Positions 4,745-17,885 of a DNA stretch of 64,000 bases are shown piece after piece. Below the pieces are notes generated by a model that worked only from the letters and a program-made list of their open reading frames with translations, was not told the origin of the DNA and made no database searches. This DNA is from Paenibacillus sp. Soil522 (GTDB lineage: Bacteria > Bacillota > Bacilli > Paenibacillales > Paenibacillaceae). The position numbers and the translations under genes were made by a program. The stretch is from positions 124,001-188,000 of the forward strand of contig NZ_LMRV01000066.1 of the NCBI RefSeq assembly GCF_001428245.1, read 5' to 3'. Within the stretch, counting starts at the first letter, position 1; each line of letters opens with the position of its first letter.

Positions 4745-6037
4745 ATGTTAGTCGTCGCATCCCTTATTTTTATTATCACATTGATATTTGTCATCTGGCA
4801 GCCTAAAGGCTTGAACATCGGCTACTCGGCTGCCGGCGGCGCGATACTGGCTCTTCTGTTTGGCGTTGTTGATTTCAATGACGTGTGGGACGTAACCGGA
4901 ATCGTCTGGAACGCAACATTAGCTTTTGTCGCTGTCATTCTTATCTCTCTTATTCTGGATGAGATCGGATTCTTCGAATGGTCTGCTCTCCATATGGCAC
5001 GCTTTGCCAAAGGAAACGGATACCTGATGTTTTCCTATGTTGTACTACTTGGAGCAGCGGTAGCCGCTTTTTTTGCCAATGATGGCGCTGCACTCATTCT
5101 CACTCCCATTGTTCTTGCGATGGTCAGAGCCTTAAAATTCGATGACCGTATGATCCTTCCATTTATTATGGCAAGCGGGTTCATCTCGGATACGGCTTCC
5201 TTACCGCTCGTTGTAAGCAATTTGGTCAATATTGTTTCATCCGATTTCTTTGGTATTGGATTCGCCGAGTATGCGAGCCGGATGATTATGCCAAACTTCT
5301 TTGCGGTTGGTGCGAGCCTCCTTGTTTTGTTCCTGTTTTTCAGAAGGAGTATTCCGCAGCAGTATGACCTCAATCAACTGAAGCAGCCTCGAGAAGCGAT
5401 AAAAGATATGCGTTTGTTTAAGTTATCTTGGGTTGTTTTAGCGGTACTATTGGCAGCTTATCTGTTTAGTGAATTCGCGAATATACCAGTCTCCATTATC
5501 GCAGGCATAGCTGCTATCGTCTTCATTATCGCAGCACGCAGAAGCGCGGCCATCCATACAGGCGCTGTCATTAAAGGAGCACCGTGGTCCGTTGTGGTGT
5601 TTTCCATCGGGATGTATGTCGTCGTATACGGTCTTCGGAACGTTGGCCTTACCGATCAGCTAGGCACCGTGTTCCAATGGACAGCGGATCAAGGATTATT
5701 TATAGCAACGGTCGGAGCAGGTTTCATTGCCGCCATCCTCTCTTCGCTTATGAATAACATGCCTACCGTTATGATTGACGCCTTGGCCATTCAAGGCACA
5801 AGTACAGAAGGTGTACTTCGAGAGGCGCTTATTTACGCAAATGTCATCGGTTCCGATTTAGGCCCTAAAATTACGCCGATCGGATCTCTGGCGACTTTAC
5901 TTTGGCTGCATGTGCTGTCCAAAAAAGGCGTGAAAATTACGTGGGGCTATTATTTTAAAATCGGAATTGTGCTGACGCTGCCTGTTCTGTTTATTACGCT
6001 TGTTGGACTTTACCTGTGGTTAAGCATAATACATTAA
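4745..6037 (+). CDS. arsB: Arsenite efflux membrane protein ArsB
   Basis: A 430-residue polytopic membrane protein of the ArsB/NhaD ion transporter superfamily has about twelve hydrophobic helices. Features include [37 protein letters not shown] and a late [15 protein letters not shown] segment with [20 protein letters not shown]. These are the conserved half-helix regions of ArsB. It exports As(III) or Sb(III), driven by membrane potential, since no ArsA ATPase is present. A strong AAGGAGG precedes the ATG, and the length is typical. Confidence 0.95.
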
Positions 6038-6062
6038 ACGAATTTCAAAGGAGACAAACAAA

Positions 6063-6485
6063 ATGGAAAAGAAACTGGTTTACTTCTTATGTACGGGTAA
6101 CTCTTGCCGGAGTCAAATGGCGGATGGCTTTCTGAATGCTCTCGGCAGTGAACAGTATGAAGTAAAAAGCGCCGGGCTGGAAGCCCATGGCTTGAATCCG
6201 AGAGCGGTTCAAGTGATGAAAGAAGCAGGCGTCGATATTAGCCAAAACTCTTCGAATGTCATTGATCCTGAAATTTTAAATCGTGCTCATTTTGTCATAA
6301 CCCTTTGCGGCCATGCCGACGAGCACTGCCCTGTCATCTCCAATCCGAATGTTGTGAAATGGCATTGGGGCTTCGAAGATCCGGCAAAAGCGACAGGCAA
6401 CGAGGACGAAATTATGGTTCAGTTCCGCAACGTTCGCGATTCTATTAAGGCGCGTATCGAGAAGTTTGTGAAAGAAGGACAATAA
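6063..6485 (+). CDS. arsC: Arsenate reductase, thioredoxin-coupled type
   Basis: A 140-residue protein with the low-molecular-weight phosphatase fold. The P-loop is CTGNSCRS (nucleophile Cys10), and the resolving pair is in [14 protein letters not shown] (Cys about 82 and 89). This three-Cys pattern marks the Bacillus/S. aureus thioredoxin-dependent ArsC, which reduces As(V) to As(III) for export by ArsB. AAAGGAGA lies upstream. It is the third gene of the ars operon and ends one base before the next start codon. Confidence 0.95.
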
Positions 6486-6486
6486 T

Positions 6487-6963
6487 ATGGCGGGCATCAA
6501 AAGAATGCATGTTGCAGTCAACTGCTCTGATTTGGAAAAGTCACTGGCCTTCTATCGCCAATTTTTCGGAATAGAACCTACGAAAGTAAAGGAAAATTAC
6601 GCTAAGTTCGAATTAGATAATCCGGCACTTCACTTTTCATTAAACGTACGCCCCTTTGATAAAAACGGTGTACTTAATCATCTCGGATTCCAAGTGGATA
6701 ATACGGAAGATGTTCTGGCTATGGGGGAACGTTTAAGACAGGCAGATCTTCTGCTGATCGATGAAATGAATACAACTTGCTGCTATGCTGTCCAAGATAA
6801 AGTATGGGTTTATGATCCGGACGGTAACGCATGGGAGATTTTCTGCACCAAAGAAGATTCGGAGTTTGAATCGGCTGGCGACCAGCGTGATCTTTCGTTA
6901 TGCTGTGCTCCTCCTTCCGCACCTGTGCAAGTGGAGTTTACATCGTTCAGAAAATCAAAGTAA
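6487..6963 (+). CDS. arsI: ArsI/CadI family C-As lyase (VOC metalloenzyme)
   Basis: A 158-residue vicinal-oxygen-chelate protein. Its N-terminal RMHVAVNCSDLEKSLAFYR carries a metal-ligand His, NHLGFQV the second His, NTTCCYAVQDKVWVYDPDGNAWEIF the paired Cys that bind organic arsenic, and WEIF the metal-ligand Glu. These match ArsI, an Fe(II)-dependent dioxygenase that cleaves the C-As bond of trivalent methyl- or aryl-arsenicals. The gene starts one base after the arsC stop, so translation is coupled. The C-terminal tail has another CC pair. ArsI is more likely than a cadmium-only CadI because of the operon. Confidence 0.88.
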   Translation: MAGIKRMHVAVNCSDLEKSLAFYRQFFGIEPTKVKENYAKFELDNPALHFSLNVRPFDKNGVLNHLGFQVDNTEDVLAMGERLRQADLLLIDEMNTTCCYAVQDKVWVYDPDGNAWEIFCTKEDSEFESAGDQRDLSLCCAPPSAPVQVEFTSFRKSK

Positions 6964-6991
6964 GCTTATGATACAAAAGGAGAATGATCTA

Positions 6992-7435
6992 ATGAGCAAA
7001 AATTATCATGCCCTAATACCAGGTTATGTGTTTATGGGCGGGGCCAATGACGTACAGTCCATAGTCGATAACGAAGGCGTTAAAGTTGTTGTCGATCTGC
7101 GTGAAGAGGCAGAGCAATGCGCTGCAGTTGGCGAAGGGTTGAAATGGATCAAAGTGCCCTTGGGAGACGAAGCGAGCGAACCACAAGAACAGCTGCTGCA
7201 AACGGCAATTGAAGCCGTAACAGCTGCCTATAAAAATGGTGAAAAGGTAGCTTTTCACTGCGGTGGCGGTAAAGGCCGTACAGGAACAGTCGCTTACGGA
7301 ACACTCCTCGAGCTGGGCCTAGCCGGGACCATTGAAGATGCTGAGCAGCAAGCCCAAAGGATTCGTTCCATCTTGAACATTAAGCCCGCGCAGCGAAAAT
7401 CATTGGAAGACTTATATAATAGTAACAACTCATAA
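6992..7435 (+). CDS. Dual-specificity/PTP-like Cys phosphatase in ars operon
   Basis: A 147-residue protein with the Cys phosphatase signature HCGGGKGRTG (H-C-X5-R-T). An upstream VVVDLREEAEQ strand-loop supplies a candidate general-acid region. The frame is open further 5' inside arsI, but AAAAGGAGA eight bases before the ATG at 6992 marks the true start. It is the last gene of the operon before the terminator. The active-site chemistry resembles that of arsenate reductases, so it could act on phosphate or arsenate esters or have a regulatory role. This is inference; the substrate is unknown. Confidence 0.8.
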   Translation: MSKNYHALIPGYVFMGGANDVQSIVDNEGVKVVVDLREEAEQCAAVGEGLKWIKVPLGDEASEPQEQLLQTAIEAVTAAYKNGEKVAFHCGGGKGRTGTVAYGTLLELGLAGTIEDAEQQAQRIRSILNIKPAQRKSLEDLYNSNNS

Positions 7436-7441
7436 CGAATC

Positions 7442-7475
7442 AACCCCATTTGCTTTCGAGTAAATGGGGTTTTTT
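7442..7475 (+). terminator. ars operon terminator
   Basis: The stem AACCCCATTT/AAATGGGGTT with a 10-nt loop is followed by a T run. It lies 7 bases after the phosphatase stop. Confidence 0.92.
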
Positions 7476-7553
7476 AGATTGCTATACATTTGGATGAATA
7501 ATCATAAATGCTATAATAACCTTAATCAGGATTTCAAATGAGGATGGTGTACT

Positions 7554-8504
7554 GTGCTTCGAACAATTGCTGTAACCAATGACTTGAAAGTGATCACTGA
7601 TATTTCCATACCCGAACATACTGATTCAAACATAAAATGGTTTTGGGTTGATTTCACTACTCCAACAGATGAAGAAATAAAATTATTGGAAACCCATTTC
7701 CGCTTTCACCCCTTAGCTATTGAAGATTGTCTCCACTTGTTACAGCGCCCAAAATTAGACCATTATGAAGATAATAACTTTTTTGTCCTGCACGCCATTA
7801 ATCAAAAAACGTTGCAAGCTGAAGAAATTGATTTATTTATAGGCAGAAACTTCGTGGTTTCATTCCATTTGCTCAAAAGCAGAGAAGTCGATGACGCCTG
7901 GAGCCGCTTAATTGAACAAAAAAATTTATCGGAAAAAGGTCATATTTATGCTGCTTACACCATCATGGACAAATTGGTTGACAACTATTTTCCGTCTTTG
8001 TATCAAATAGAAGATCAATTAAATGAAATAGAAAGCAATGTTAATAACGAAAGCATTGAAAAATTAATGGAGGCCGTTTTCGATATCCGCTCTAATTTGA
8101 TCAAACTCCGAAAAACCGTTTTACCTATGAGGGACCTTCTTTACCGAGTACTTAATTCAGAAAAAATTGATGGAGTTAAAGAGCAATTGGTTTACTTTAC
8201 CGATATTTACGACCATTTGCTTAAGCTTTCCGAAATGATTGAATCTAATCGAGAAATGACGGCAGATATGAGGGACAGCTACATTTCAATAAATTCAAAC
8301 CGAATGAATACTATTATGAAGACACTAACCGTTATGACATCCATTTTTATTCCCTTAACCTTTATTGCGAGCATTTATGGAATGAATTTCGAGTACATGC
8401 CGGAACTTACTTGGCGTTGGGGTTATTTTGGGGTATTAGGGGTTTTGTTAGTAGTCGGGTCTATCATGTTATTTGGGTTATGGTGTAAGGGTTGGTTTAG
8501 ATAA
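7554..8504 (+). CDS. corA: CorA family Mg2+/divalent cation channel
   Basis: A 316-residue protein with a long soluble N-terminal half, a coiled-coil stalk (about 180-240) and two C-terminal helices. Helix 1 ends in the diagnostic GMN motif (ASIYGMNFEYMPEL), and helix 2 is WGYFGVLGVLLVVGSIMLF. It forms a pentameric Mg2+ (or Co2+/Ni2+) uptake channel. GTG is the likely start, with GAGGATGG upstream. The next gene, a metal efflux ATPase, starts 30 bases later, suggesting a metal-homeostasis transcription unit. Confidence 0.92.
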   Translation: MLRTIAVTNDLKVITDISIPEHTDSNIKWFWVDFTTPTDEEIKLLETHFRFHPLAIEDCLHLLQRPKLDHYEDNNFFVLHAINQKTLQAEEIDLFIGRNFVVSFHLLKSREVDDAWSRLIEQKNLSEKGHIYAAYTIMDKLVDNYFPSLYQIEDQLNEIESNVNNESIEKLMEAVFDIRSNLIKLRKTVLPMRDLLYRVLNSEKIDGVKEQLVYFTDIYDHLLKLSEMIESNREMTADMRDSYISINSNRMNTIMKTLTVMTSIFIPLTFIASIYGMNFEYMPELTWRWGYFGVLGVLLVVGSIMLFGLWCKGWFR

Positions 8505-8534
8505 ATAAGAATGCAAAGTCGAGGTGCAGAATAC

Positions 8535-10790
8535 ATGAGCGATGAGGTCGATAAACCAAAATTTAAAAAAACGCTAACCTTAGTTAAAGCTGCTTCAGAC
8601 AAGGCTTGTCAAGATGGCTGCTGCGAGACACCAAACACTAGGCTTCCTGGAGACGTTGAACAATCGGGTCATTCGCTGGAACCCCTTGAGAAGAAAGCGA
8701 ATTTTCTTACCTACCACATTGAGGGTATGGATTGCAGTTCTTGTGCCAAGACCATTGAAAACCATTTAAATACGGTTCCCTCTGTCAAAAGTGTAACTGT
8801 CAATTTTTCTACGGGAAAGGCAAAAATTGAACATGGAAACAGCGCGGAAGAAATAATAAAAGAAGTTCAAAATGCAGGTTATAAAGCGAGGTTGGTCTCA
8901 AATAAAACAGCAAACATCGTTCAAAGGCCATCTAAATCAGGAGCCAATCTTCTTGTGCTATCAGGAGCGTTATTATTGCTTGGTTTTCTCGGTTCCTTCA
9001 GCGATGTATCCTCGTTCATGATAAACATGCTTTATTTAGCATCGATTGTTATCGGCGGTTATAAACCAGCCAAAAGCACATTTTATGCGATCAAAAGCCG
9101 TTCATTGGATATGAATGTGCTAATGACAGCTGCTGTCATCGGAGCAGCTGCTATTGGTCAATGGCTGGAGGGCGCTACGGTCGTTTGGTTATTTGCGCTA
9201 GGCAACGTTCTGCAAACCAGATCCATCGAGAAAACACGGAATTCAATACGAAACTTAATCGATCTTGCTCCGCCAGATGCTTGGGTCAAAATCGGAGACG
9301 ATATAATCAGAAAATCCGTAGAAGAGATCTCTGTCGGACAAATCATGATTGTAAAACCTGGAGACAAAATCCCGCTTGACGGAGAAGTGATCAATGGCGA
9401 ATCAACTGTCAACCAGGCTCCCATCACTGGGGAGTCAATTCCTGTTGATAAGATCGTTGGTGATCAAGTATTCGCAGGAACGATCAACGAACACGGGTTG
9501 CTTGACATAAAGGTTACCAAGCTAGTCGAAGATACCACCATTGCAAAAATCATTCACTTGGTTGAAGAAGCCCAAGAGCAAAAAGCACCCACGCAGGCAT
9601 TTGTCGATAAATTCGCCCGCTTGTATACACCTATTGTGTTTGTGCTCGCTCTTGTGGTTATGATCCTCCCTCCTCTTATTCATTTCGGGGATTGGGGAGA
9701 ATGGTTTTACAAAGGCTTGGAACTCCTTGTAGTGGCATGTCCCTGCGCGCTCGTCATCTCCACGCCCGTTGCTATTGTTTCTGCTATCGGAAACGCGGCC
9801 AAAAATGGTGTTCTAATTAAAGGCGGTGCTTTTTTAGAGGTCGCAGGCAAGATTTCTGCCGTAGCGTTTGATAAAACCGGCACCCTTACCGAAGGGAAAC
9901 CTAAGGTAACGGGGGTCATATCTCTTGGAAATTTGGAGCATGACGTTTTATCAATCGCGCGAACATTGGAAGAGTATTCTACTCATCCCATCGCGAAAGC
10001 CATAGTCGACCACGCATGTGACAAAGCGGTCCCCCTTTTAAAGGGCGAACAATTTCGGAACATTGTCGGTAAAGGTATCCATGCAGTGATCGGCGTAACC
10101 GAATATTTTGCTGGAAACCTGAGATTGTTTCAAGATCTAAAAACACCTCTTGATCAGGCAGAATCGCTTATAACCTCTTTGCAGCAAGAAGGAAATACGC
10201 TTGTCCTAGTTGGAACTAAAGAGAAGCTGATCGGAATAATCACGGTTGCAGACACGGTTCGTGAGAGCGCAGTAAATGCCCTCAAGCATTTAAAACAAGC
10301 AGGAATCAACGATATTGTCATGCTCACAGGCGATAATGAAGGAACAGCCAAAAAAGTAGCCGCCCAAACGGGGATCACCCGATATTTCGCAGAGCTGCTG
10401 CCCGAAGATAAGGTCAAAGCCATTCGAAAGCTTCAAAATGAAGGTAACATCGTTGCGATGGTTGGCGATGGCATTAATGACGCCCCCGCTCTAGCAACGG
10501 CTGATCTTGGCATTGCTATGGGCGGAGCAGGAACAGACACTGCAATGGAAACAGCCGATGTTGTTTTGATGGCCGACAGCTTGGAGAAGCTGCCGCATAC
10601 CGTAAAGTTAAGCCGTAAAGCTCTGAGGATCATCAAACAGAACATTTGGTTTTCAATTGTTGTGAAACTTGCTGCTCTGATTCTTATCTTTCCCGACATT
10701 CTTACCTTATGGATCGCAGTTCTGAGTGATACGGGCGCCGCTTTACTTGTTATTCTGAACAGTATGAGATTATTAAAAATCAAAAGGTAA
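8535..10790 (+). CDS. cadA: Heavy-metal P1B-type ATPase (CadA/ZntA, Cd/Zn/Pb efflux)
   Basis: About 751 residues from the ATG at 8535, which has GAGGTG nine bases upstream. An in-frame ATG at 8511 has a poorer site. In order: a short Cys tail (KACQDGCCE), an HMA domain with GMDCSSCAKTIE, transmembrane helices, the TGES actuator (APITGESIPVD), the CPC membrane motif (VACPCALVIS), phosphorylation site DKTGTLTEG, the HP region (STHPIAKAI), and GDGINDAPALA. The last helix reads LSDTGAALLVILNSMRLL. CPC plus that last helix fits the Zn/Cd/Pb exporters rather than copper ATPases. No CadC-type regulator is adjacent. Confidence 0.92.
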   Translation: MSDEVDKPKFKKTLTLVKAASDKACQDGCCETPNTRLPGDVEQSGHSLEPLEKKANFLTYHIEGMDCSSCAKTIENHLNTVPSVKSVTVNFSTGKAKIEHGNSAEEIIKEVQNAGYKARLVSNKTANIVQRPSKSGANLLVLSGALLLLGFLGSFSDVSSFMINMLYLASIVIGGYKPAKSTFYAIKSRSLDMNVLMTAAVIGAAAIGQWLEGATVVWLFALGNVLQTRSIEKTRNSIRNLIDLAPPDAWVKIGDDIIRKSVEEISVGQIMIVKPGDKIPLDGEVINGESTVNQAPITGESIPVDKIVGDQVFAGTINEHGLLDIKVTKLVEDTTIAKIIHLVEEAQEQKAPTQAFVDKFARLYTPIVFVLALVVMILPPLIHFGDWGEWFYKGLELLVVACPCALVISTPVAIVSAIGNAAKNGVLIKGGAFLEVAGKISAVAFDKTGTLTEGKPKVTGVISLGNLEHDVLSIARTLEEYSTHPIAKAIVDHACDKAVPLLKGEQFRNIVGKGIHAVIGVTEYFAGNLRLFQDLKTPLDQAESLITSLQQEGNTLVLVGTKEKLIGIITVADTVRESAVNALKHLKQAGINDIVMLTGDNEGTAKKVAAQTGITRYFAELLPEDKVKAIRKLQNEGNIVAMVGDGINDAPALATADLGIAMGGAGTDTAMETADVVLMADSLEKLPHTVKLSRKALRIIKQNIWFSIVVKLAALILIFPDILTLWIAVLSDTGAALLVILNSMRLLKIKR

Positions 10791-10904: not shown

Positions 10905-11642
10905 TTAAGCATTCGCATTAAGCTCATTTTGCATTTTAAGTTGATTGCGGTATACGAATTTCGAAATCGTAATGCTAATTTCATATAGCAAGAAAAGCGG
11001 AACGATTACAATTACATCTGACAGTATATCCGGGGGGGTGATTGTGACCGCAACAATAACAAGAATAAAGTAAGCCAGTTTGCGTGCCTTTGCTAGTCGG
11101 TGCGGGTTCAAAATCCCGAGTTTCGTAAGGAACATAACAACCGCCGGCATTTCAAACAATAGGCCAAACGGGACTGTCATATGGATCATGAATGTAAAAT
11201 ATTTTTCGGCTGTATACATAGCGGCAAAATCATTAGCTGCCATTTCATTCATAAAATGAAGAACCATTGGGAACAAAATGAAATAACCAAAAAATATTCC
11301 AAGTAAAAACAAAAAAGTGATGCTTGGTATAAAAAGCAAAGTAGCTCGTTGAGCTTGCTCCGGCACTGCGGGTTGAACAAACTTCCATGTTTGATAAGCA
11401 GCCACAGGAAGTGTTACCGCAATGGCAACCACACCTGCAATCATGAAATATACCCACATGACATCAGATGGACCAAGTATGACCAGCTTTTGGTCCATAT
11501 CTCTTACAAGCCACTGGTAAATATCACGTACGTAGATGAATGCCGCTACCATGGATACCAAAAAAGCGATGAGGGTACGTATGATACGGGCTCTCATTTC
11601 TTCCAAATGTCCAAGTAAATTCTGTTCGTTTTGATTTTTCAT
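10905..11642 (-). CDS. tatC: Twin-arginine translocase subunit TatC
   Basis: A 245-residue six-helix protein starting MKNQNEQNLLGHLEEMRARI, with the conserved HLEEMRxR signal-peptide-binding segment. Later it has FGLLFEMPAVVMFLTKLG and RKLAYFILVIVAVTITPPDILSD, both TatC hallmarks. It recognises twin-arginine signal peptides and, with TatA, exports folded proteins. tatA ends one base upstream, and a PhoX-family gene precedes tatA. This is a dedicated export arrangement comparable to phoD-tatAd-tatCd of B. subtilis. Confidence 0.95.
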   Translation of the reverse strand: MKNQNEQNLLGHLEEMRARIIRTLIAFLVSMVAAFIYVRDIYQWLVRDMDQKLVILGPSDVMWVYFMIAGVVAIAVTLPVAAYQTWKFVQPAVPEQAQRATLLFIPSITFLFLLGIFFGYFILFPMVLHFMNEMAANDFAAMYTAEKYFTFMIHMTVPFGLLFEMPAVVMFLTKLGILNPHRLAKARKLAYFILVIVAVTITPPDILSDVIVIVPLFLLYEISITISKFVYRNQLKMQNELNANA

Positions 11643-11643
11643 A

Positions 11644-11859
11644 TTACTTATTTAGAAGGACGCTTTCCTGTCCCGTCTCAGGTTCTTTCTTCTTCTCCTC
11701 GTCCTCGCCATTTACAAGACCGCGTGTAGCGCCTTTAAATTCACTTAAAGTACGTCCAAAAGCTCTACCGAGTTCCGGCAGCTTAGACGGTCCGAAAATA
11801 ATCAGGGCAATGATAAGAATCAAAACTAAACCGCCAATTCCAATGTTATTAAAAGGCAT
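11644..11859 (-). CDS. tatA: Sec-independent translocase protein TatA
   Basis: The 71-residue protein has one N-terminal helix ([30 protein letters not shown]), the FGP-x-KLPELG hinge and an amphipathic helix, then an acidic tail. This is the TatA/E layout. It multimerises to form the export pore with TatC. AGGAGATGAC precedes the ATG. It lies 74 bases after the PhoX gene and directly before tatC. Confidence 0.95.
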
Positions 11860-11886
11860 AATCAGTCATCTCCTAGAGGATAGTAT

Positions 11887-11913
11887 TCAGCCACGGAGAT
11901 AATTCGTGGCTGA
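11887..11913 (-). other. Intercistronic hairpin between PhoX gene and tatA
   Basis: A perfect 9-bp stem TCAGCCACG/CGTGGCTGA with a 9-nt loop and no following T run. It is more likely an mRNA stability or processing hairpin than a full terminator, which could set different levels for the PhoX and Tat proteins. Confidence 0.6.
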
Positions 11914-11933
11914 TCATAAAGAATAAGTTCTAA

Positions 11934-13607
11934 TTAGCCCAGTTTAAATCCACTGATCGCAACTACGCCGCAGCGTGCTATCTTATCGCCAAAACGATGT
12001 GGCCAAGTGCTTGTCGGGTTGTTCAGATCTGTTGTCATTTCGCCAGGATGCTGTACGGAAAGGAAAAGCGTCTGTTCATCCGGCGTGAAAAATGGGCCTG
12101 TCAGCTCGGCATCAACCGGTCCGGACGCGAATTGCAGCGCAGTACCTTTACCGGCACCGCTAGTCGGGATTACAAACAGGCCGTTATTCATGAAGGACTT
12201 GTAAACGCCTTTATTATGGCTGCTTGTCGAAATATCTGTAACTACCCAGAGATTACCATTTGAATCAAATGCCAAGTTATCAGGGGAACTGAATCCGGAT
12301 TGTCTGCCGCCGGCAGCAAAAATCTCAAAATCGAATTCGACCGATCCTAAATCATTGCCGGCTTCGAAGATGCGGGTGATATGACCATGGATATTGCCAT
12401 GTATATCGTTGTTCGTATGACAGATGAAGACCGTGTTATCAAACGGAGAAATTTCAATATCCTCCGGACGGTCAGTCGGTGTGCCTCCTACGAGCAGGGC
12501 TGCTTCATGGCAGAAAGTTACGACATCGGCTTGTGATTGGAACTTTTTAAGAAGATCTTCTTTTGTTCCGGAAATTCCATAAGGGTTTTTGTACTTTTCA
12601 TTGGATAGTACCTTTTTTACTCCTTCGATCGTAACAGGAAGCCATTTACCCGATTTCAGGTTTGCAACATACAGCGTTCCTTCTTCAAGCAACGCAGAGT
12701 TGGAACGGCCTTTTAATTTATCGTATCTGCCTTTACTTACGAATTTATATACGCAAGCGTCTTTCTTGTCATCGCCCATATATACGACAACGCGGCCGTC
12801 TGCAGCTATACCCATAGCGGTATTCTCATGATTAAATCGACCAAGAGCAGTATGCTTTTTAAGGTAAGACTGATCAAAAGGATCAACTTCAACTACCCAG
12901 CCGTAATGCGTATCAGGCAATTTGGCGGTAGCTGCAGTATCAGCGTAGTTCTCTTCGCATGAGAGAACCGTGTTCCACAACGTTACGCCCCCGGAACAAT
13001 TCGCAAACGTTCCAATTGCAGTCGTTGCGTTGCCAAGTGCAGTGGACCCTTTTGCCGGACCTGTAAAATCAAATTTTGTCATTCCATTAATCCGGCGCGC
13101 ATATTTAGAAGATGTATCCATTTTCCAAGCCCCGTCCTCGTCACGGTATACCTCAATGACGGACATTCCCTGATAGTAGAGATCTTTTTGAATCTGGTCA
13201 GCTGTCATTTTACCGTCAACAACTGTGCCCAGAGAGAAGATGTTTGTATATTCGTGATTGGTTACAAGCAGTCCGTGCGTATTTGAACCTTTGATCGGAA
13301 AGTAAGCGTTATAGTCGGCCCCTTGACCGAACTTTTCACCCGCTTTGTTAATAACGTCGTCAAAAGCCGCGACTACATCATATTTGAAGTTTTTCGGAAG
13401 AACCAGCTTATCTTCTTTAGAAGGTTGAATCGGATCGAAGTACCCGCTAACTTTGTTTGTTTTGAAACCAAACAGGTGGTCAGCTGTTGATGACATTGCG
13501 GAAGCTTTTCCATCCAAAGCGCCTAATCCTGCGGATGCTGCTGCTAAAGCTGCTGCCCCGGTTCCAAGAAAAGACAGAAACGTTTTACGATCCATGTTCT
13601 TATTCAA
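11934..13607 (-). CDS. PhoX/DUF839 family secreted phosphatase-like protein
   Basis: About 557 residues. The frame extends to 13646, but GGGGAG eight bases before the TTG at 13607 fixes the start. The N-terminus is MNKNMDRKTFLSFLGTGAA, a Tat-like signal with Arg-Lys in place of Arg-Arg before TFLSF. The mature part has PhoX/DUF839 features: HGLLVTNHEYTN, CSGGVTLWNTVLSCEENY, RFNHENTAMGIAADGRVVVYMGDD, EDIEISPFDNTVFICHTNN and SPDNLAFDSNGNLWVVTD. It is probably a beta-propeller with Ca/Fe centres that hydrolyses phosphate esters outside the cell. The adjacent tatA-tatC supports Tat export. Enzyme activity is inferred from family. Confidence 0.85.
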   Translation of the reverse strand: MNKNMDRKTFLSFLGTGAAALAAASAGLGALDGKASAMSSTADHLFGFKTNKVSGYFDPIQPSKEDKLVLPKNFKYDVVAAFDDVINKAGEKFGQGADYNAYFPIKGSNTHGLLVTNHEYTNIFSLGTVVDGKMTADQIQKDLYYQGMSVIEVYRDEDGAWKMDTSSKYARRINGMTKFDFTGPAKGSTALGNATTAIGTFANCSGGVTLWNTVLSCEENYADTAATAKLPDTHYGWVVEVDPFDQSYLKKHTALGRFNHENTAMGIAADGRVVVYMGDDKKDACVYKFVSKGRYDKLKGRSNSALLEEGTLYVANLKSGKWLPVTIEGVKKVLSNEKYKNPYGISGTKEDLLKKFQSQADVVTFCHEAALLVGGTPTDRPEDIEISPFDNTVFICHTNNDIHGNIHGHITRIFEAGNDLGSVEFDFEIFAAGGRQSGFSSPDNLAFDSNGNLWVVTDISTSSHNKGVYKSFMNNGLFVIPTSGAGKGTALQFASGPVDAELTGPFFTPDEQTLFLSVQHPGEMTTDLNNPTSTWPHRFGDKIARCGVVAISGFKLG

Positions 13608-13768
13608 AGTGTCCACTCCCCGATATGAAATTGCCTTCGAGGACAAGCATAATCGAAGAGTGTAAACACCATGTCAGCCCGATATTTAGTTACTGTAAAT
13701 CCATTAAATTACAATATAATAGTCATACCTATACACATCCAGCCATTAGGCAAGACCTAACCGGGCGG

Positions 13769-14512
13769 TCAGGTAACGGCTTCCGTTCCAAAAGCTTTAG
13801 GGCCGCGCGGCTGATCGCCCTTGTCGTCCGGCTCCAGCGTAATGCCGATACGGTCGTAGTTTAGTTCGCCAGATTCGATCGCCATTGTGAGCAGACCAAT
13901 TCCTTTCTCGTCAACGCGGAACGTGCCGGCGCTAGTTCGGTTGCCATCGCGGAGAAGCCAGACCTGATAGGCTTGCTCATCCTTGGTTGGCTTCGCTCCG
14001 AACACATAGACTACGAATTGATTGCCTTGTCCGGTGTCAACAATACATGCGACACCATACGCACGCTCCTTCTCACTCGATTCCGCCTTTAGCATGTTAA
14101 TTTGAACAATCCGGGAAGCCGGCGCGAATAAGGCATTTTCGATGGATGGTGGACTCGTTTCACGGTTGTCGATCAAGGGGTTATGCCAGAGCGAACCGCT
14201 GAAAAAAATGAGCGCTGCCGCTGCCACAGCTATAATAGGCTTCCTCCAGTTGGTTTTAGGGGAGGTTGAGGGACGTCTTGGCGCCGCTTTGGCAGCGGAC
14301 ATAATCTGCTCTTTCAAATCCTGCGGAGGTTCAATTCTTTCTATATCCAAGGGAAGCGCCTCCCATACGGTTTGCAATGCGGCTAGCTCCTCTCTGCAGG
14401 ATTTACAATGAGTCAAATGACGCTCGAATGCCTCTCTTTCCTCCTCGGTACAAGCACCGGAAAGATAGTCAAGCACGATTCCGCATTCACTGCCGAATGT
14501 ATCGTCACTCAT
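13769..14512 (-). CDS. Anti-sigma factor, zinc-finger N-terminus and RskA-like C-terminus
   Basis: About 247 residues from the ATG at 14512, with AAAGGGGG upstream. That ATG follows the sigma gene's stop after one base. The N-terminal zinc anti-sigma motif is HLTHCKSCREEL (H-X3-C-X2-C). One transmembrane segment (PIIAVAAAALIFFSGSLW) comes next. The outer domain has YQVWLLRDGNRTSAGTF and GIGLLTM stretches typical of the anti-sigma-K RskA family. It should hold the upstream ECF sigma factor at the membrane until a surface signal frees it. The signal is unknown; the nearby cupredoxin genes hint at a redox or copper stress. Confidence 0.88.
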   Translation of the reverse strand: MSDDTFGSECGIVLDYLSGACTEEEREAFERHLTHCKSCREELAALQTVWEALPLDIERIEPPQDLKEQIMSAAKAAPRRPSTSPKTNWRKPIIAVAAAALIFFSGSLWHNPLIDNRETSPPSIENALFAPASRIVQINMLKAESSEKERAYGVACIVDTGQGNQFVVYVFGAKPTKDEQAYQVWLLRDGNRTSAGTFRVDEKGIGLLTMAIESGELNYDRIGITLEPDDKGDQPRGPKAFGTEAVT

Positions 14513-14513
14513 T

Positions 14514-15083
14514 TTATAGATCCCCCTTTGCCGCAAGATGCCTTCGTAATATTTTCAAAGTTTGATGGAGCCTGTTCTTGACCGTTCCGAGTGGCTGATC
14601 ATATAGCTGTGCCAGCTCGCTGAGGCTATAGCCCTGCCAATAAAAATGCTCTAGCAGCGTTTTCTGCGGATGAGATAAATGCATGCACGCCTGCTGAATT
14701 TCTTCTCTTAGAGAATAACGAACGGCATGTTCCTCGGGTGAGAGTGCGGTTTGATCAGGCAATTCATTAAATCGTTCCTCCGTTATTTGTATAAGGCCGG
14801 AAGCATTTCTTCTTTGTTTTCGAATATGGTCCGTCGTAATATTGCGAGTTAAGGTAAGCAGCCAGCTTGTAAAACGCCCCTTCTCCGGGTTATACTCCGC
14901 TTCCGTTGTCCACAGACGCATGAAGACAGCCTGCGCAATATCTCTCGCGGCAGCCTCATCCCGGACGGCCTTCATGGCAAAAGAATAAATCAAAGCGCCA
15001 TACCGGTCATAAAGAACGGATAGCGCTTGATGTTTGCCGCTTCTAATGAGCTGCATGAGTTCATAATCGGTTAGATTAAGCAT
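14514..15083 (-). CDS. ECF-type RNA polymerase sigma factor
   Basis: A 189-residue protein with region 2 (LYDRYGALIYSFAMKAVRD, DIAQAVFMRLWT, GRFTSWLLTLTRNITTDHIRK) and region 4 (HPQKTLLEHFYWQGYSLSELAQLYDQPLGTVKNRLHQTLKILRRHL). It resembles the SigK/RpoE-like group that pairs with RskA anti-sigma factors. GTGGAGG lies eight bases before the ATG. Translation is nearly coupled to the anti-sigma gene. It probably controls its own cluster, including the cupredoxin genes upstream. Confidence 0.92.
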   Translation of the reverse strand: MLNLTDYELMQLIRSGKHQALSVLYDRYGALIYSFAMKAVRDEAAARDIAQAVFMRLWTTEAEYNPEKGRFTSWLLTLTRNITTDHIRKQRRNASGLIQITEERFNELPDQTALSPEEHAVRYSLREEIQQACMHLSHPQKTLLEHFYWQGYSLSELAQLYDQPLGTVKNRLHQTLKILRRHLAAKGDL

Positions 15084-15127
15084 TGAATAGCGCCTCCACG
15101 ACAGGCTTTTTATCTATCTTATCAGAA

Positions 15128-15157
15128 GAAGGAGCAGCCGTGAACAGCTGCTCCTTC
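15128..15157. terminator. Hairpin between cupredoxin lipoprotein and sigma gene
   Basis: A perfect 11-bp stem GAAGGAGCAGC/GCTGCTCCTTC with an 8-nt loop. On the minus strand it is followed only by a T-rich stretch (TTCTTCTGAT), so it is probably a leaky terminator. The sigma/anti-sigma pair likely has its own promoter as well. Confidence 0.6.
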
Positions 15158-15175
15158 GCTCATAAATACGATGAC

Positions 15176-15832
15176 TTATTTCTCCTTCACGACGATTGTC
15201 CCTTTCATGCCGGGATGAGGAGCGCAATAGTAGCTGAACTCTCCCGCCTTAGAGAAGGTAATCTTATTGCTGTCATTTTGAGCCAGAATGCCGGTGTCAA
15301 AGTCTTCATTATCTGCAGTTGCTGTATGCCCTACCTCATCCTTATTGATAAAGGTAACGGTATCGCCTTCATTTATTTCGAGCTTGTCCGGTGAGAACGC
15401 GAAATTCGAGATCTCAACCGTGTGAACGGTCACCGCTTCAGTCGGCTGATCCTTGTCTTTACCTCCGCCCTGCTCCTCCGTCTTTGCCGGCGCTTTGGAA
15501 GGCTTGGGAGTTGGGATAGATTTAGGCAGCGGCGAATTAGTCGGTGACTTGGTTTCTACCGTTTTCTCCGTCGCAGCAGGCTTCTGCGTTATTTTCGGCT
15601 TATCTGTCTCCCGGGACTTCTCAGTCTCAACCGGCTCGTCCGAAGGGGCGACAACGGACGCGGGACTAGCAGAGGGAGAGCTGGAAGGATTGACAGCCTC
15701 AGAGCTAGCGGGTGAAGCGGCCATATCCATTGTGTTCGCAGGCGGCTCGTTTGCTGAAGCACCGCAGGCCGATAACAATAAGAGAAGCAGGGCAAGAAAC
15801 GGCCATCCATAAATGCGGGATATTTTTCTCAT
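15176..15832 (-). CDS. Plastocyanin-like cupredoxin lipoprotein
   Basis: A 218-residue lipoprotein with signal and lipobox LLLLLSAC. A Pro/Thr/Ser/Glu-rich linker (about 25-130) would span the wall. The C-terminal cupredoxin (about 135-218) has type-1 copper ligands His (EVGHTATAD) and Cys-His-Met (YYCAPHPGM). It should carry single electrons at the outer membrane face or bind copper. It lies ten bases after the COG4315/cupredoxin gene, in the same direction, so both are likely made together. Confidence 0.88.
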   Translation of the reverse strand: MRKISRIYGWPFLALLLLLLSACGASANEPPANTMDMAASPASSEAVNPSSSPSASPASVVAPSDEPVETEKSRETDKPKITQKPAATEKTVETKSPTNSPLPKSIPTPKPSKAPAKTEEQGGGKDKDQPTEAVTVHTVEISNFAFSPDKLEINEGDTVTFINKDEVGHTATADNEDFDTGILAQNDSNKITFSKAGEFSYYCAPHPGMKGTIVVKEK

Positions 15833-15842
15833 GTCAGCACGC

Positions 15843-17432
15843 TCACTTTACGATGATTTGCCCGGTCATAAACGACATATGGGGCTCGCAGTAAAAATTA
15901 ACAGTACCTGGTTTGTCCAAGGTTATCGTGTACGATTCGCCTTTGGCCAGCAACGGCGTCGAGAATGAACCGTCCACGGCTACCGCATTATGCTTCATAT
16001 CGTCGTAGTTTGTGAAAGTGATTTTGGAGCCTGCTTCCACAGTGAGCGGTTCCTTGCCGAATGAAAATTGTTTGATATCAATGCTATACGTCTTAACGGT
16101 GACAGTTGAAGCTGTCGTTCCATTGAATTTCACCGGATCAACGGTAAACCAGACATCGTTGACGCCCTGTCCTTTCAAATCTCCATGCTCCTTGTCCTGG
16201 ATAAAATAATAGAGCGGAAACCCTTTAAAAGCAGCTTGCTTACTTCCATCCGAGCGAGTTATCGTTCCTATATCACTTCCTTTTAACGTAGACGGGACGC
16301 TGGTGCCCGATAAGGAATAGGCTGGCCAATTAACTAAACAATTGCCTTCGCAAACGCTCGATTGGGACGGGTCCTTGTCAAAATAATAAAGCGCACGGCC
16401 GTAGTCATCGGTCAAGTAGCTGCCTGCTGACTTCGAGGTACCGAGCATGACCGCATAATCCGACTTCGCGGCAAACCATACGCCTCCCACTCCTTCTCCG
16501 GCAATATCCCCGGACGCGGTATCCTTTACAAAATAATAGAGAGGCCAATTTTTGTAGGTTAGCTGCTTCGTACCGTCGGTGCGGGTAATAACAGCGAAGT
16601 CATCCTTACTAAGTGATGCAGGTATTTGTAGATGCTCATCATAATAGACCGGCCAGTTCTTCAAGCAATCCGCCTGGCAGGCGTTCACATTTTCCGCATC
16701 TTTCGTGAAGAAATAGAGTGTACGGCCGTTTTTATCAGTGAAATATGTCCCCAGCTTGTCGTTTTTGCCAAGCTCGATTCGCTCGCCCTGCGGCAGCGAA
16801 GACCCGGCAGCGATTACGCCGCTGGCTTGCAGGGAATCGAAGAACACCTTGCCGCCTTTCATCTCGGCCGATAATGCTTCGATGAGCGCCGTTGCCAAGC
16901 TGGCATTAAGTAAAGCTCCGGTGCCGGCAATCCGGTTCAAGCCATGGGAGGCAGCGAATGCTTCTGTTCCTTGGTATGTAAAGTCTGATCCGGATTGATA
17001 GCCAAGGTTCTCCAAGATTACCTTGTAAAACTGCTTGGAGCTGATTGCCGCGCTTGGTTCAAAAAGATTATTGCCCGAGCCCTGCCAGCCTAATTCCGGT
17101 TTATTCTTCAAATAGGCAAGAATGGACTGGTTCGGTTTACTAACCTTTGCAGCATCTGAGAAATTGGATTTGCCGGTGTAAGACTGTGCTTCCTTTAGTT
17201 TTCCGTTAAGACGGAGCGAGATGATTGCAGCTTGCATTCGAGTCGATGCTTTGTTCAAATAGGCAGCATTCATGCCATTGCCGTCACCAATAAGCAGGCC
17301 AAGCTCAAACGCCGTATCGGCATCGGAATTGATGGCGGCTGTGGCGGCTGCCGACGCAGTGCCGAGCGGAGCAGCCACGAGTGTCGTGCACATCGCAGTA
17401 ATCAACAACATTTTCTTCAAACTTGTTAGCAT
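15843..17432 (-). CDS. Secreted SLH-like/COG4315-repeat/cupredoxin fusion protein
   Basis: About 529 residues from the ATG at 17432, which has AAGGAGGG eight bases upstream. After a signal peptide ending near SAAA come SLH-like segments (about 35-175; AFELGLLIGDGNGM, TRMQAAIISLRL). Next are two COG4315 modules (about 215-430) with four Yx(F/W/Y)xxD motifs: LYFFTKD, LYYFVKD, LYYFDKD and LYYFIQD. Each module has a paired-Cys loop (VNACQADCLKNWP, SSVCEGNCLVNWP). A cupredoxin ends the protein (KHNAVAV and FYCEPHMSFM copper ligands). Electron transfer on the cell surface is a plausible role; no function is proven for COG4315. Confidence 0.85.
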   Translation of the reverse strand: MLTSLKKMLLITAMCTTLVAAPLGTASAAATAAINSDADTAFELGLLIGDGNGMNAAYLNKASTRMQAAIISLRLNGKLKEAQSYTGKSNFSDAAKVSKPNQSILAYLKNKPELGWQGSGNNLFEPSAAISSKQFYKVILENLGYQSGSDFTYQGTEAFAASHGLNRIAGTGALLNASLATALIEALSAEMKGGKVFFDSLQASGVIAAGSSLPQGERIELGKNDKLGTYFTDKNGRTLYFFTKDAENVNACQADCLKNWPVYYDEHLQIPASLSKDDFAVITRTDGTKQLTYKNWPLYYFVKDTASGDIAGEGVGGVWFAAKSDYAVMLGTSKSAGSYLTDDYGRALYYFDKDPSQSSVCEGNCLVNWPAYSLSGTSVPSTLKGSDIGTITRSDGSKQAAFKGFPLYYFIQDKEHGDLKGQGVNDVWFTVDPVKFNGTTASTVTVKTYSIDIKQFSFGKEPLTVEAGSKITFTNYDDMKHNAVAVDGSFSTPLLAKGESYTITLDKPGTVNFYCEPHMSFMTGQIIVK

Positions 17433-17630
17433 CAATTAACCCTCCTTAAGTTCTGTTCACTAGAGATAACGCTCCGGAGGACAAAATGGTTTGATCTGTA
17501 AAGCAAAAAGCAGCCCATTACCTTGAAGAGAAATAGACTGCTATCTTAAACAACATATGAAACTATTCGATATCGTCGTCCGAATTTGAATCAAATTGAT
17601 CCGCTTGATTATGCTTGCGGCCGAGTAGAC

Positions 17631-17885
17631 CTAATTGCCTCCGCTTTTGCCTCCGCTGCGATTGCCGCCTGTACGGCTGCCTCCGCTTTTACCTCCGCTG
17701 CGATTGCCGCCTGTACGGCTGCCTCCGCTTTTGCCTCCGCTGCGATTGCCGCCTGTACGGCTGCCTCCGCTTTTACCTCCGCTGCGATTGCCGCCTGAGC
17801 GTTTGCCTCCGCTTTTACCTCCGCTGCGATTGCCGCCTGAGCGTTTGCCTGAAGATTTTTTTTCCTTATCTTTTTCCTTAGACAT
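17631..17885 (-). CDS. Low-complexity SGGK/SGGN repeat protein
   Basis: 84 residues: a charged start (MSKEKDKEKKSSGKRSGG) and then tandem 14-residue units such as GGNRSGGKSGGSRT. The DNA is a 42-bp tandem repeat, so other frames are also open. The minus frame is preferred because AAAGGAGG lies seven bases before its ATG. It is highly basic and Gly/Ser-rich, without Cys or hydrophobic residues. Nucleic-acid or polyanion binding is a guess. Function is unknown. Confidence 0.65.
   Translation of the reverse strand: MSKEKDKEKKSSGKRSGGNRSGGKSGGKRSGGNRSGGKSGGSRTGGNRSGGKSGGSRTGGNRSGGKSGGSRTGGNRSGGKSGGN
17636..17850. repeat. 42-bp tandem repeat array (about 5 units)
   Basis: Repeated unit on the plus strand starts CCTCCGCTTTTACCTCCGCT and ends TGTACGGCTG. 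The last units carry a GAGCGTTTG variant. The period is 42 bases (14 codons), so copy-number changes keep the frame. Confidence 0.9.

Follow-up and report, generated by a model that had tools for sequence, protein, structure and literature searches.

A COG4315-cupredoxin cassette with its own ECF sigma/anti-sigma pair in Paenibacillaceae

Introduction

The pairing of COG4315 proteins with extracytoplasmic function (ECF) sigma factors is already in print, and the cassette described here is a Gram-positive variant of this known kind. It lies in a 64-kb window (the whole stretch of DNA that was analysed) of contig NZ_LMRV01000066.1 from Paenibacillus sp. Soil522 and consists of four genes, named FUS, CUP, SIG and ASF in this report. 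They encode a fusion of a surface-layer homology (SLH)-like domain with COG4315 modules and a cupredoxin, a cupredoxin lipoprotein, an ECF sigma factor and an RskA-type anti-sigma factor, respectively. The cassette is real, conserved and well delimited, and most likely serves a redox response.

The closest described systems are those of RpoE1 and RpoE4 in Sinorhizobium meliloti which, according to Bastiat et al. (PMC3511301), are switched on by compounds that generate sulfite as well as in stationary phase. The rpoE1 operon, SMc01418-rpoE1-ecfR1, starts with the gene of the 'lipoprotein 15' protein SMc01418, which accounts for 10% of total protein in stationary phase and whose homologues, for which a regulatory role was suggested, often occur in rpoE1-like operons of distant bacteria. 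A second RpoE1 target, SMc02156, resembles periplasmic binding proteins, while RpoE4 drives expression of the sulfite oxidase gene sorT, a cytochrome c and the pseudoazurin gene azu2 (PMC3511301). A further paper agrees and describes the lipoprotein-rpoE1 arrangement as widely conserved in the ECF26 group (PMC6180224).

Several features of these systems recur in the Paenibacillus cassette, in which a secreted PF03640/COG4315 protein, an ECF sigma factor and a membrane anti-sigma factor are likewise encoded in one operon-like run, autoregulated in Sinorhizobium and predicted to be so here. The sigma factors have few targets in both cases, and the solute-binding-like SMc02156 finds a parallel in the motif-bearing loci L162, L164, L348, L368 and L370 described below. 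The cupredoxin is under control of the sister sigma factor RpoE4 in Sinorhizobium, whereas the Paenibacillaceae cassette has its cupredoxins inside the operon itself. It also differs in the fusion of COG4315 to an SLH-fold domain and a cupredoxin, and in an anti-sigma factor with an RskA_C domain.

Such an anti-sigma domain combined with an ECF sigma factor is known from SigK-RskA of Mycobacterium tuberculosis (ECF19), which has different targets and a redox Cys pair that is not conserved in SIG; ASF has a zinc-finger motif, on which RskA is reported not to rely (PMC7406223). A COG4315 lipoprotein, SCO0930, is listed under an ECF (SigU) regulon of Streptomyces coelicolor (PMC6295645). The Brucella system BcrS-AbcS/bcrXQP resembles the present proposal as a local, autoregulated ECF system for making redox-defence proteins. 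It is of type ECF16, produces a methionine-rich peptide and an MsrPQ-like reductase instead of COG4315 proteins and cupredoxins, and was shown to respond to hypochlorite (PMC8315932). CorE copper-responsive ECF sigma factors, as described in PMC10141476, have a Cys-rich C-terminal extension and no anti-sigma factor. No SLH-COG4315-cupredoxin fusion with a promoter type of its own was recognised in the literature found by full-text searches on COG4315/PF03640, ECF and cupredoxin themes.

Composition and conservation of the cassette

An earlier note on this DNA had joined seven genes running in one direction into a copper-redox module, namely the COG4315-cupredoxin fusion, the cupredoxin lipoprotein, the ECF sigma factor, the RskA-type anti-sigma factor, PhoX and tatA-tatC. 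All seven are present on the minus strand of the window with the named families. The cassette comprises the first four and a predicted promoter:

17468..17494, minus strand: predicted ECF promoter, TCAAACC-N16-CGTT, lying some 58 nt before the start of FUS
15843..17432/17435, minus strand: FUS, with signal peptide, SLH-fold domain (about residues 35-200), two COG4315 modules (about 212-438) and cupredoxin (about 446-530)
15176..15832, minus strand: CUP, cupredoxin lipoprotein with lipobox and long linker
14514..15083, minus strand: SIG, ECF sigma factor of 189 aa
13769..14536, minus strand: ASF, zf-HC2/RskA_C anti-sigma factor

In the window genome, the sole PF10099 match, both PF00127 matches and all four PF03640 repeats fall within this operon.

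A search of 295 genomes of the family gave 95 with a match at 1e-20, i. e. the window's own genome, 67 related loci that were taken and 27 genomes that were dropped, in which the match was confined to the N-terminal domain of a long protein. FUS, SIG and ASF follow each other in this order on one strand in 64 of the 67 relatives, 62 of which have a cupredoxin match in between. Together with a strongly conserved ECF-type promoter (see next section), this gene order bears out the notion of a conserved unit with its own ECF sigma factor for FUS-CUP-SIG-ASF. A second set of named genomes that shares members with the first contained FUS, SIG and ASF in 73 of 75 loci, and a cupredoxin match (in FUS or as CUP) accompanied them in 48 of these 73 but not in the other 25; one of the two exceptions is a record from outside the Paenibacillaceae. 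No neighbour of the cassette recurs in more than 12 of the 68 loci. Outside the family, PF03640 was present in 10 of 398 Bacillota genomes searched (in one of them below the cut-off), and ten regions from nine such genomes contained a single ECF-like match, about 2 kb away.

Just upstream of FUS, positions 17631-17885 (minus strand) encode a short Gly/Ser/Arg/Lys repeat protein with GGNRSGGKSGGSRT units. Similar repeat frames occur near the cassette, on its opposite side, in L035 and L038.

A conserved promoter upstream of FUS

Two-block word enumeration over 250 nt, without any preset motif, recovered CAAAC-N17-CGTT upstream of FUS in 60 of 68 regions, whereas in three simple shuffles, the most frequent word reached 1.7 on average. 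Once one-base variants of the -35 element are allowed, 66 of the 68 loci carry the motif, the full form of which is TC(A/G)AACCG-N15-CGTTA. Across 39 non-redundant sites, which were chosen by pattern and leave the enumeration as the unbiased test, the -35 box is 96% and the -10 box 92% identical, compared with 28-35% for the spacer and flanks. The distance to the FUS start is 59-71 nt at 29 of these sites and 76-136 nt at the rest. By the same enumeration, the motif was not found before CUP or SIG, and a window scan allowing one mismatch revealed none before phoX. Of the three starts for which a shared sigma-factor motif had been envisaged, that of FUS (17432) is preceded by one, and none was found in these searches before those of SIG (15083) and phoX (13607). 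In the second sample, the motif was present at FUS in 55 of 74 Paenibacillaceae loci.

When the strict pattern with one mismatch was applied to 40 of the 67 cassette genomes, 37 matches were obtained in 31 genomes, 30 of them at FUS, as opposed to 10 matches for the reversed control pattern. Among the seven other matches, three fall inside reading frames and two precede operons for a solute-binding protein and COG4315; the last two are decayed FUS promoter copies, with 89-91% identity over 138 and 53 nt. A larger regulon in the window genome was considered and rejected: 95 one-mismatch matches compare with 109 for the reversed control, and the three exact matches elsewhere in this genome all lie inside reading frames.

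Seven further related loci were compared, six of which (L162/L369, L164/L367, L368, L370, L173 and L348) have the motif 71-82 nt upstream; it is absent from the seventh, L172. L162 (3355-4686) encodes a solute-binding protein (SBP_bac_11) and COG4315 with no adjoining sigma gene. The same pair is present in L164 (3269-5960), where ECF and anti-sigma genes come next, and in L348 (3057-5689), an operon on a Peribacillus plasmid that also encodes an ECF and an anti-sigma factor. L368 and L370 have a solute-binding protein behind the same promoter, with no COG4315 within the stretch examined. In L173, the motif precedes a Cu_amine_oxidN1-cupredoxin protein adjoining an ECF/anti-sigma pair.

Judged by the motif, the sigma factor has no clear target besides its own operon in most of the genomes searched, which would also fit a mainly sensory function of FUS and CUP: as target proteins located in the wall, the two would act back on ASF. 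Such feedback was proposed by Bastiat et al. for SMc01418, the COG4315 protein of the RpoE1 operon (PMC3511301). Yet L162, with the same promoter and no adjoining sigma gene, indicates that a COG4315 protein can be a plain target, and the reported stationary-phase abundance of SMc01418 lies above what a sensor would need (PMC3511301). Although compatible with the on-demand redox cassette favoured below, a predominantly sensory role hence appears rather unlikely.

Sigma lineage and anti-sigma factor

A single clade (12 rows, support 100/99) unites the sigma factors of L164, L348 and L173 with those of the FUS cassettes, and the L172 sigma factor joins it from outside (13 rows, 99/83). None of 27 other own-genome sigma factors falls inside this Bacillota clade in the tree, which was built without L286. 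Since the motif-bearing loci L164, L348 and L173 share the SIG clade, the promoter type tracks one sigma lineage, beyond one operon and beyond the family.

ASF harbors an RskA_C domain (PF10099, E 8.6e-16) and the zf-HC2 ligands H40-x3-C44-x2-C47, which are part of a conserved H-x3-C-x2-C pattern. By eye, a single hydrophobic stretch is apparent at about residues 101-117, and the RskA_C part is presumably located outside the cell. The true ASF start is probably the ATG at 14512. The RskA_C part contains one well-conserved Cys, one Met that is found in 43 of 63 sequences and no conserved His. Cys164, the lone Cys of the predicted outer domain, is kept in 61 of 63, with Trp or Tyr in the clade with three COG4315 modules. 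A function of this residue as a copper sensor paired with the cupredoxins was rejected, as it follows the clade and five cupredoxin-bearing three-module cassettes have Trp. In an alignment of 65 SIG sequences, no Cys column is conserved in more than half, and a SigK-type redox Cys pair is absent. Neither does SIG qualify as a CorE-type sigma factor, given its 189 aa, the lack of a conserved Cys and the adjoining anti-sigma gene.

FUS, CUP and the COG4315 module

Profile searches identified four PF03640 repeats in FUS (E 7.8e-49), corresponding to two COG4315 modules. The four aromatic Yx(F/W/Y)xxD motifs and paired Cys that the earlier note had pointed out are readily seen in its sequence (YFFTKD, YYFVKD, YYFDKD and YYFIQD, as well as two C-x3-C pairs). 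No Pfam SLH family was among the matches of the N-terminal domain at E 0.01 or better. In the AlphaFold2 model of FUS, with a mean predicted local distance difference test (pLDDT) score of 91.9, residues 35-200 fit the SLH domain of SpaA (151 residues, 3.2 A, 18% identity) with a Z of 12.7, which is middling for a helical domain, though residues 35-200 are covered. The model accordingly predicts an SLH trimer, i. e. the three-repeat fold. The C-terminus of the model superimposes on plastocyanin with Z 14.0 over 83 residues at 1.4 A. Domains like the FUS N-terminus also start long proteins of other Paenibacillaceae (L289, 2974-5268; L290, 2941-5178; L291, 2280-4517), and the two of these that were scanned, L289 and L291, are carboxylesterases.

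For CUP, visual inspection revealed a lipobox (LSAC, residues 20-23) and a linker rich in Pro, Ser, Thr and Lys that spans roughly 110 residues. The type-1 copper set (His...Cys-x2-His...Met) occurs in 60 of 64 FUS proteins, including that of the window, and the other four have no cupredoxin domain. Of the 64 genes scored as CUP, 63 also have it, L099 being a misassigned reading frame; these counts were completed by eye from printed sequences, as the scripted pattern was too strict. The full type-1 ligands claimed for both window cupredoxins are present and mark putative type-1 sites, with a predicted cupredoxin fold in the case of FUS, the protein assessed.

Architectures vary considerably across 79 named loci. 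Cupredoxin-bearing proteins have two C-x3-C modules in 36 cases, three in 5 and one in 5, while the 33 proteins that do not contain a cupredoxin have three modules in 20 cases, two in 12 and one in a single case; five of the 12 are stand-alone proteins from outside the family. The cupredoxin is thus optional, and COG4315 is the constant part of the fusion. Modelled alone, the two COG4315 modules reach a pLDDT of 94.7 and a predicted template modelling score (pTM) of 0.90. No solved relative of this model was found: the best Foldseek hits had E 1.3 (PDB) and 0.17 (viral), the best VIA-align Z was 2.2, and a profile search of PDB sequences gave E 0.61 at best. A missing structural match does not prove a new fold. 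An earlier modelling paper lists Lipoprotein_15 with a weak score among repeat families without known structure (PMC8078820).

The two complete type-1 sites in FUS and CUP would also be expected of a copper-stress cassette, in which SIG is set free by an excess of copper and the membrane is spared because FUS and CUP capture the metal at the wall. Several further observations point in this direction. C-x3-C followed by Trp-Pro is invariant in a 51-row COG4315 alignment, and C-x3-C was seen by eye in all 15 plasmid COG4315 proteins printed; it is a copper-binding motif in Sco and CuA. Relatives of SIG lie beside Cu_amine_oxidN1-cupredoxin proteins (L172 and L173), and a haloarchaeal plasmid protein from Natrinema (L347, 3932-4843) fuses COG4315 to a plastocyanin/azurin-type domain. 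However, the neighbours recurring in at least 6 of 68 loci did not include a regulator, pump or chaperone for copper. Cupredoxins are missing from 33 of 79 COG4315 proteins (among them the 20 with three modules and the five stand-alone ones), 25 of 75 named loci have FUS, SIG and ASF without a cupredoxin match, and the RskA_C part of ASF offers little beyond one well-conserved Cys and a frequent Met. The P-type ATPase gene adjoining the cassette runs in the opposite direction, scores higher to Zn/Cd than to Cu families and has no match in the 67 related loci. Copper stress is hence an unlikely explanation, and by analogy to the systems of Sinorhizobium, a role in redox or sulfur stress seems likelier than plain copper resistance.

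COG4315-ECF pairing in other bacteria

A plasmid search with the COG4315 modules matched 177 records, of which 40 were taken at even steps and 19, about one per genus, were opened. COG4315 lies directly beside an ECF/anti-sigma pair in seven of these loci (7 of the 17 bacterial ones) from four phyla, namely in Shinella, Peribacillus, Deinococcus, Phaeobacter, Acidovorax, Clavibacter and Paenarthrobacter. No pairing was detected in Natrinema, Rhizobium, two Pseudomonas, Streptomyces, Azospirillum, Halobaculum, Burkholderia, Phyllobacterium, Ensifer, Paraburkholderia and Cupriavidus, four of these records being unannotated and searched by tblastn with eight sigma factors only, which divergent ones may escape. 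CnrH of the Cupriavidus locus is more than 1 kb away from COG4315. The anti-sigma factors of the Deinococcus and Peribacillus loci contain RskA_C, three others zf-HC2 only, and two have no Pfam match at 0.001. FUS and the proteins of L164 and L348 match the SCO0930 model below the cut-off; SCO0930 is not known to carry an SLH or cupredoxin fusion.

The contexts of 15 annotated plasmid loci, for which no baseline was computed, include katG, a peroxide regulator, a flavohaemoprotein and a multicopper oxidase in Phaeobacter, thioredoxin/CcdA in Rhizobium and Clavibacter, and superoxide dismutase and chromate transport in Paraburkholderia and Cupriavidus. A TDT transporter with a LysR regulator is encoded near COG4315 in P. 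syringae, Clavibacter and Paenarthrobacter, and TDT transporters have been linked to sulfite export. These contexts lean loosely toward sulfur or redox stress.

On Staphylococcus and Enterococcus plasmids (L365 and L366, 3971-6982), an ECF/anti-sigma pair is followed by a gene of the Mur ligase family; a LysR regulator and a putative sulfate exporter are encoded nearby.

Proposed mechanism and signal

The conserved gene content and order, the promoter conservation, the sigma lineage and the predicted domain folds support a reading that we consider probable: FUS-CUP-SIG-ASF would form an ECF sigma/anti-sigma cassette that is complete in itself, controls its own expression and places redox proteins in the Gram-positive envelope when they are needed. 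We infer that the zinc-finger domain of ASF holds SIG at the membrane until an envelope signal acts on the outer RskA_C domain and SIG is released. From the TCAAACCG-N15-CGTTA promoter preceding FUS, SIG could then initiate transcription, which would read through and raise SIG and ASF again. After export, FUS would be fixed in the wall through its SLH trimer, while CUP may be lipid-held on the membrane and reach out on its linker. Once loaded with copper, the type-1 sites in which both proteins end might each carry one electron.

Because the cassette is likened to the Sinorhizobium RpoE1/RpoE4 systems with their COG4315 protein, ECF and anti-sigma factors, pseudoazurin and sulfite oxidase, reactive-sulfur or redox stress is the likeliest signal. 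By this analogy, sulfite or another sulfur or redox stress can be put forward tentatively as the trigger.

A number of points weigh against the proposed cassette function or the analogy behind it. The cassette promoter, TCAAACCG-N15-CGTTA, has only a CGT core in common with RpoE1-type promoters with their GAA(T)-type -35 and CGTC-type -10 elements. The S. meliloti RpoE1/RpoE4 promoters listed in PMC6180224 have a -35 of GAA(T) type, mostly GGAAT, and not TCAAACC. SIG belongs to a supported Bacillota clade, while the COG4315-linked sigma factors of Proteobacteria (three, in a clade of their own, 100/99) and two of Actinomycetota (100/96) lie outside it; S. meliloti RpoE1 itself stands outside this comparison. 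Hence, the pairing of COG4315 with ECF factors is common to several sigma lineages, the likeness to RpoE1 rests on gene content, and SIG, differing in lineage and -35 element, is not filed as ECF26. External sodium sulfite gave no induction in the experiments of Bastiat et al. (PMC3511301), and unlike the RpoE4 target operon with sorT, the cassette operon encodes no sulfite enzyme. Moreover, the motif could not be recognised at FUS in 19 of 74 named Paenibacillaceae loci, where relaxed matches are mostly no better than shuffles; 14 of these 19 have three COG4315 modules. PF00174, a family of molybdenum oxidoreductases including sulfite oxidases, was found in 63 of 68 cassette genomes (including that of the window) compared with 157 of 227 others (Fisher p 5e-5). 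This co-occurrence was not used and lends no support, because all 42 genomes of the window genus carry the family and the association may reflect the genus only.

With one cupredoxin presumably anchored in the wall and the other in the membrane, the products of one operon could also hand electrons across the wall, as part of a chain that connects in either direction to partners outside the cell. The recurrent neighbours include no conspicuous oxidoreductase or cytochrome chain, though, and many cassettes do without a cupredoxin, which makes a dedicated chain of this kind improbable.

The neighbouring phoX-tatA-tatC operon

Downstream of ASF, the minus strand continues with a second group of genes:

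13661..13699, minus strand: Pho-box-like array upstream of phoX, four hexamers in 11-bp phase
11934..13607, minus strand: PhoX, outside the cassette
11644..11859, minus strand: TatA, belonging with PhoX
10905..11642, minus strand: TatC, belonging with PhoX, just beyond the interval of the earlier note

PhoX is a member of PF05787 (E 8.3e-108) and aligns to the solved PhoX structure 3zwu (E 4.2e-70). As its gene and the Tat genes share the strand with the cassette and adjoin it in the window, they could conceivably be controlled by the same sigma factor and act together with the cupredoxins, as the earlier note proposed. However, no PhoX, TatA or TatC match lies near the cassette in any of the 67 relatives, within 10-16 kb around each. 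Among 51 genomes of the genus, 17 close PhoX relatives (79-93% identity) were found, all with tatA and tatC directly downstream and with no cassette genes in the 3.5-4.7 kb examined around them; one PhoX frame and one tatC of this set look frameshifted. Four more distant PhoX proteins (39-42%) had no Tat match.

About 104 nt before the MDRKTFL start of PhoX, hexamers near TT(A/C/T)A(C/T)A are arranged in 11-bp phase. PhoP boxes have the same layout, i. e. direct repeats of TT(A/C/T)A(C/T)A at an 11-bp phase. No more than 10 of 200 shuffles gave an equally good repeat in 15 of the 18 loci, the weaker ones being L294, L301 and L307. Owing to this layout, phoX-tatA-tatC reads as a phosphate operon that adjoins the cassette by chance. 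It is a separate operon, probably for phosphate starvation, reminiscent of Bacillus subtilis phoD-tatAd-tatCd, in which the gene for a secreted phosphatase, there PhoD instead of PhoX, is likewise followed by its own tatA and tatC. With the separate trio conserved in 17 of 17 cases and no sigma motif before phoX, the joint module is highly improbable, and this part of the earlier proposal is abandoned.

The PhoX signal MDRKTFLS (13595-13607) contains Arg-Lys rather than Arg-Arg in 18 of 18 close loci, and two more distantly related PhoX proteins have SRR. Facing the cassette, a metal-resistance stretch on the plus strand (4745-10790) encodes an ArsB pump, a low-molecular-weight phosphatase-type protein (possibly an arsenate reductase), a glyoxalase, a dual-specificity phosphatase, CorA and the heavy-metal P-type ATPase.

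Implications

Taken together, the analysis splits a conserved redox-response unit from a chance phosphate neighbour. A broader and rather doubtful interpretation would regard COG4315 as a copper- or thiol-redox domain with a fold not yet in the PDB, which carries a metal or disulfide on the invariant C-x3-C and could stand in for a cupredoxin in chains anchored in the wall. The domain would have been retained next to a dedicated switch of ECF and anti-sigma factor in four or more bacterial phyla, with sigma factors from several lineages. The Paenibacillaceae cassette would then represent the Gram-positive version of an envelope response to reactive sulfur that is found widely. The confident model of the COG4315 modules, for which no solved relative was found, makes them a good target for structure determination. 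PF03640/COG4315 is still catalogued as a secreted repeat of unknown function; by linking it to type-1 copper proteins, one promoter sequence, one sigma lineage and a sulfite-linked precedent, the cassette makes its role testable.

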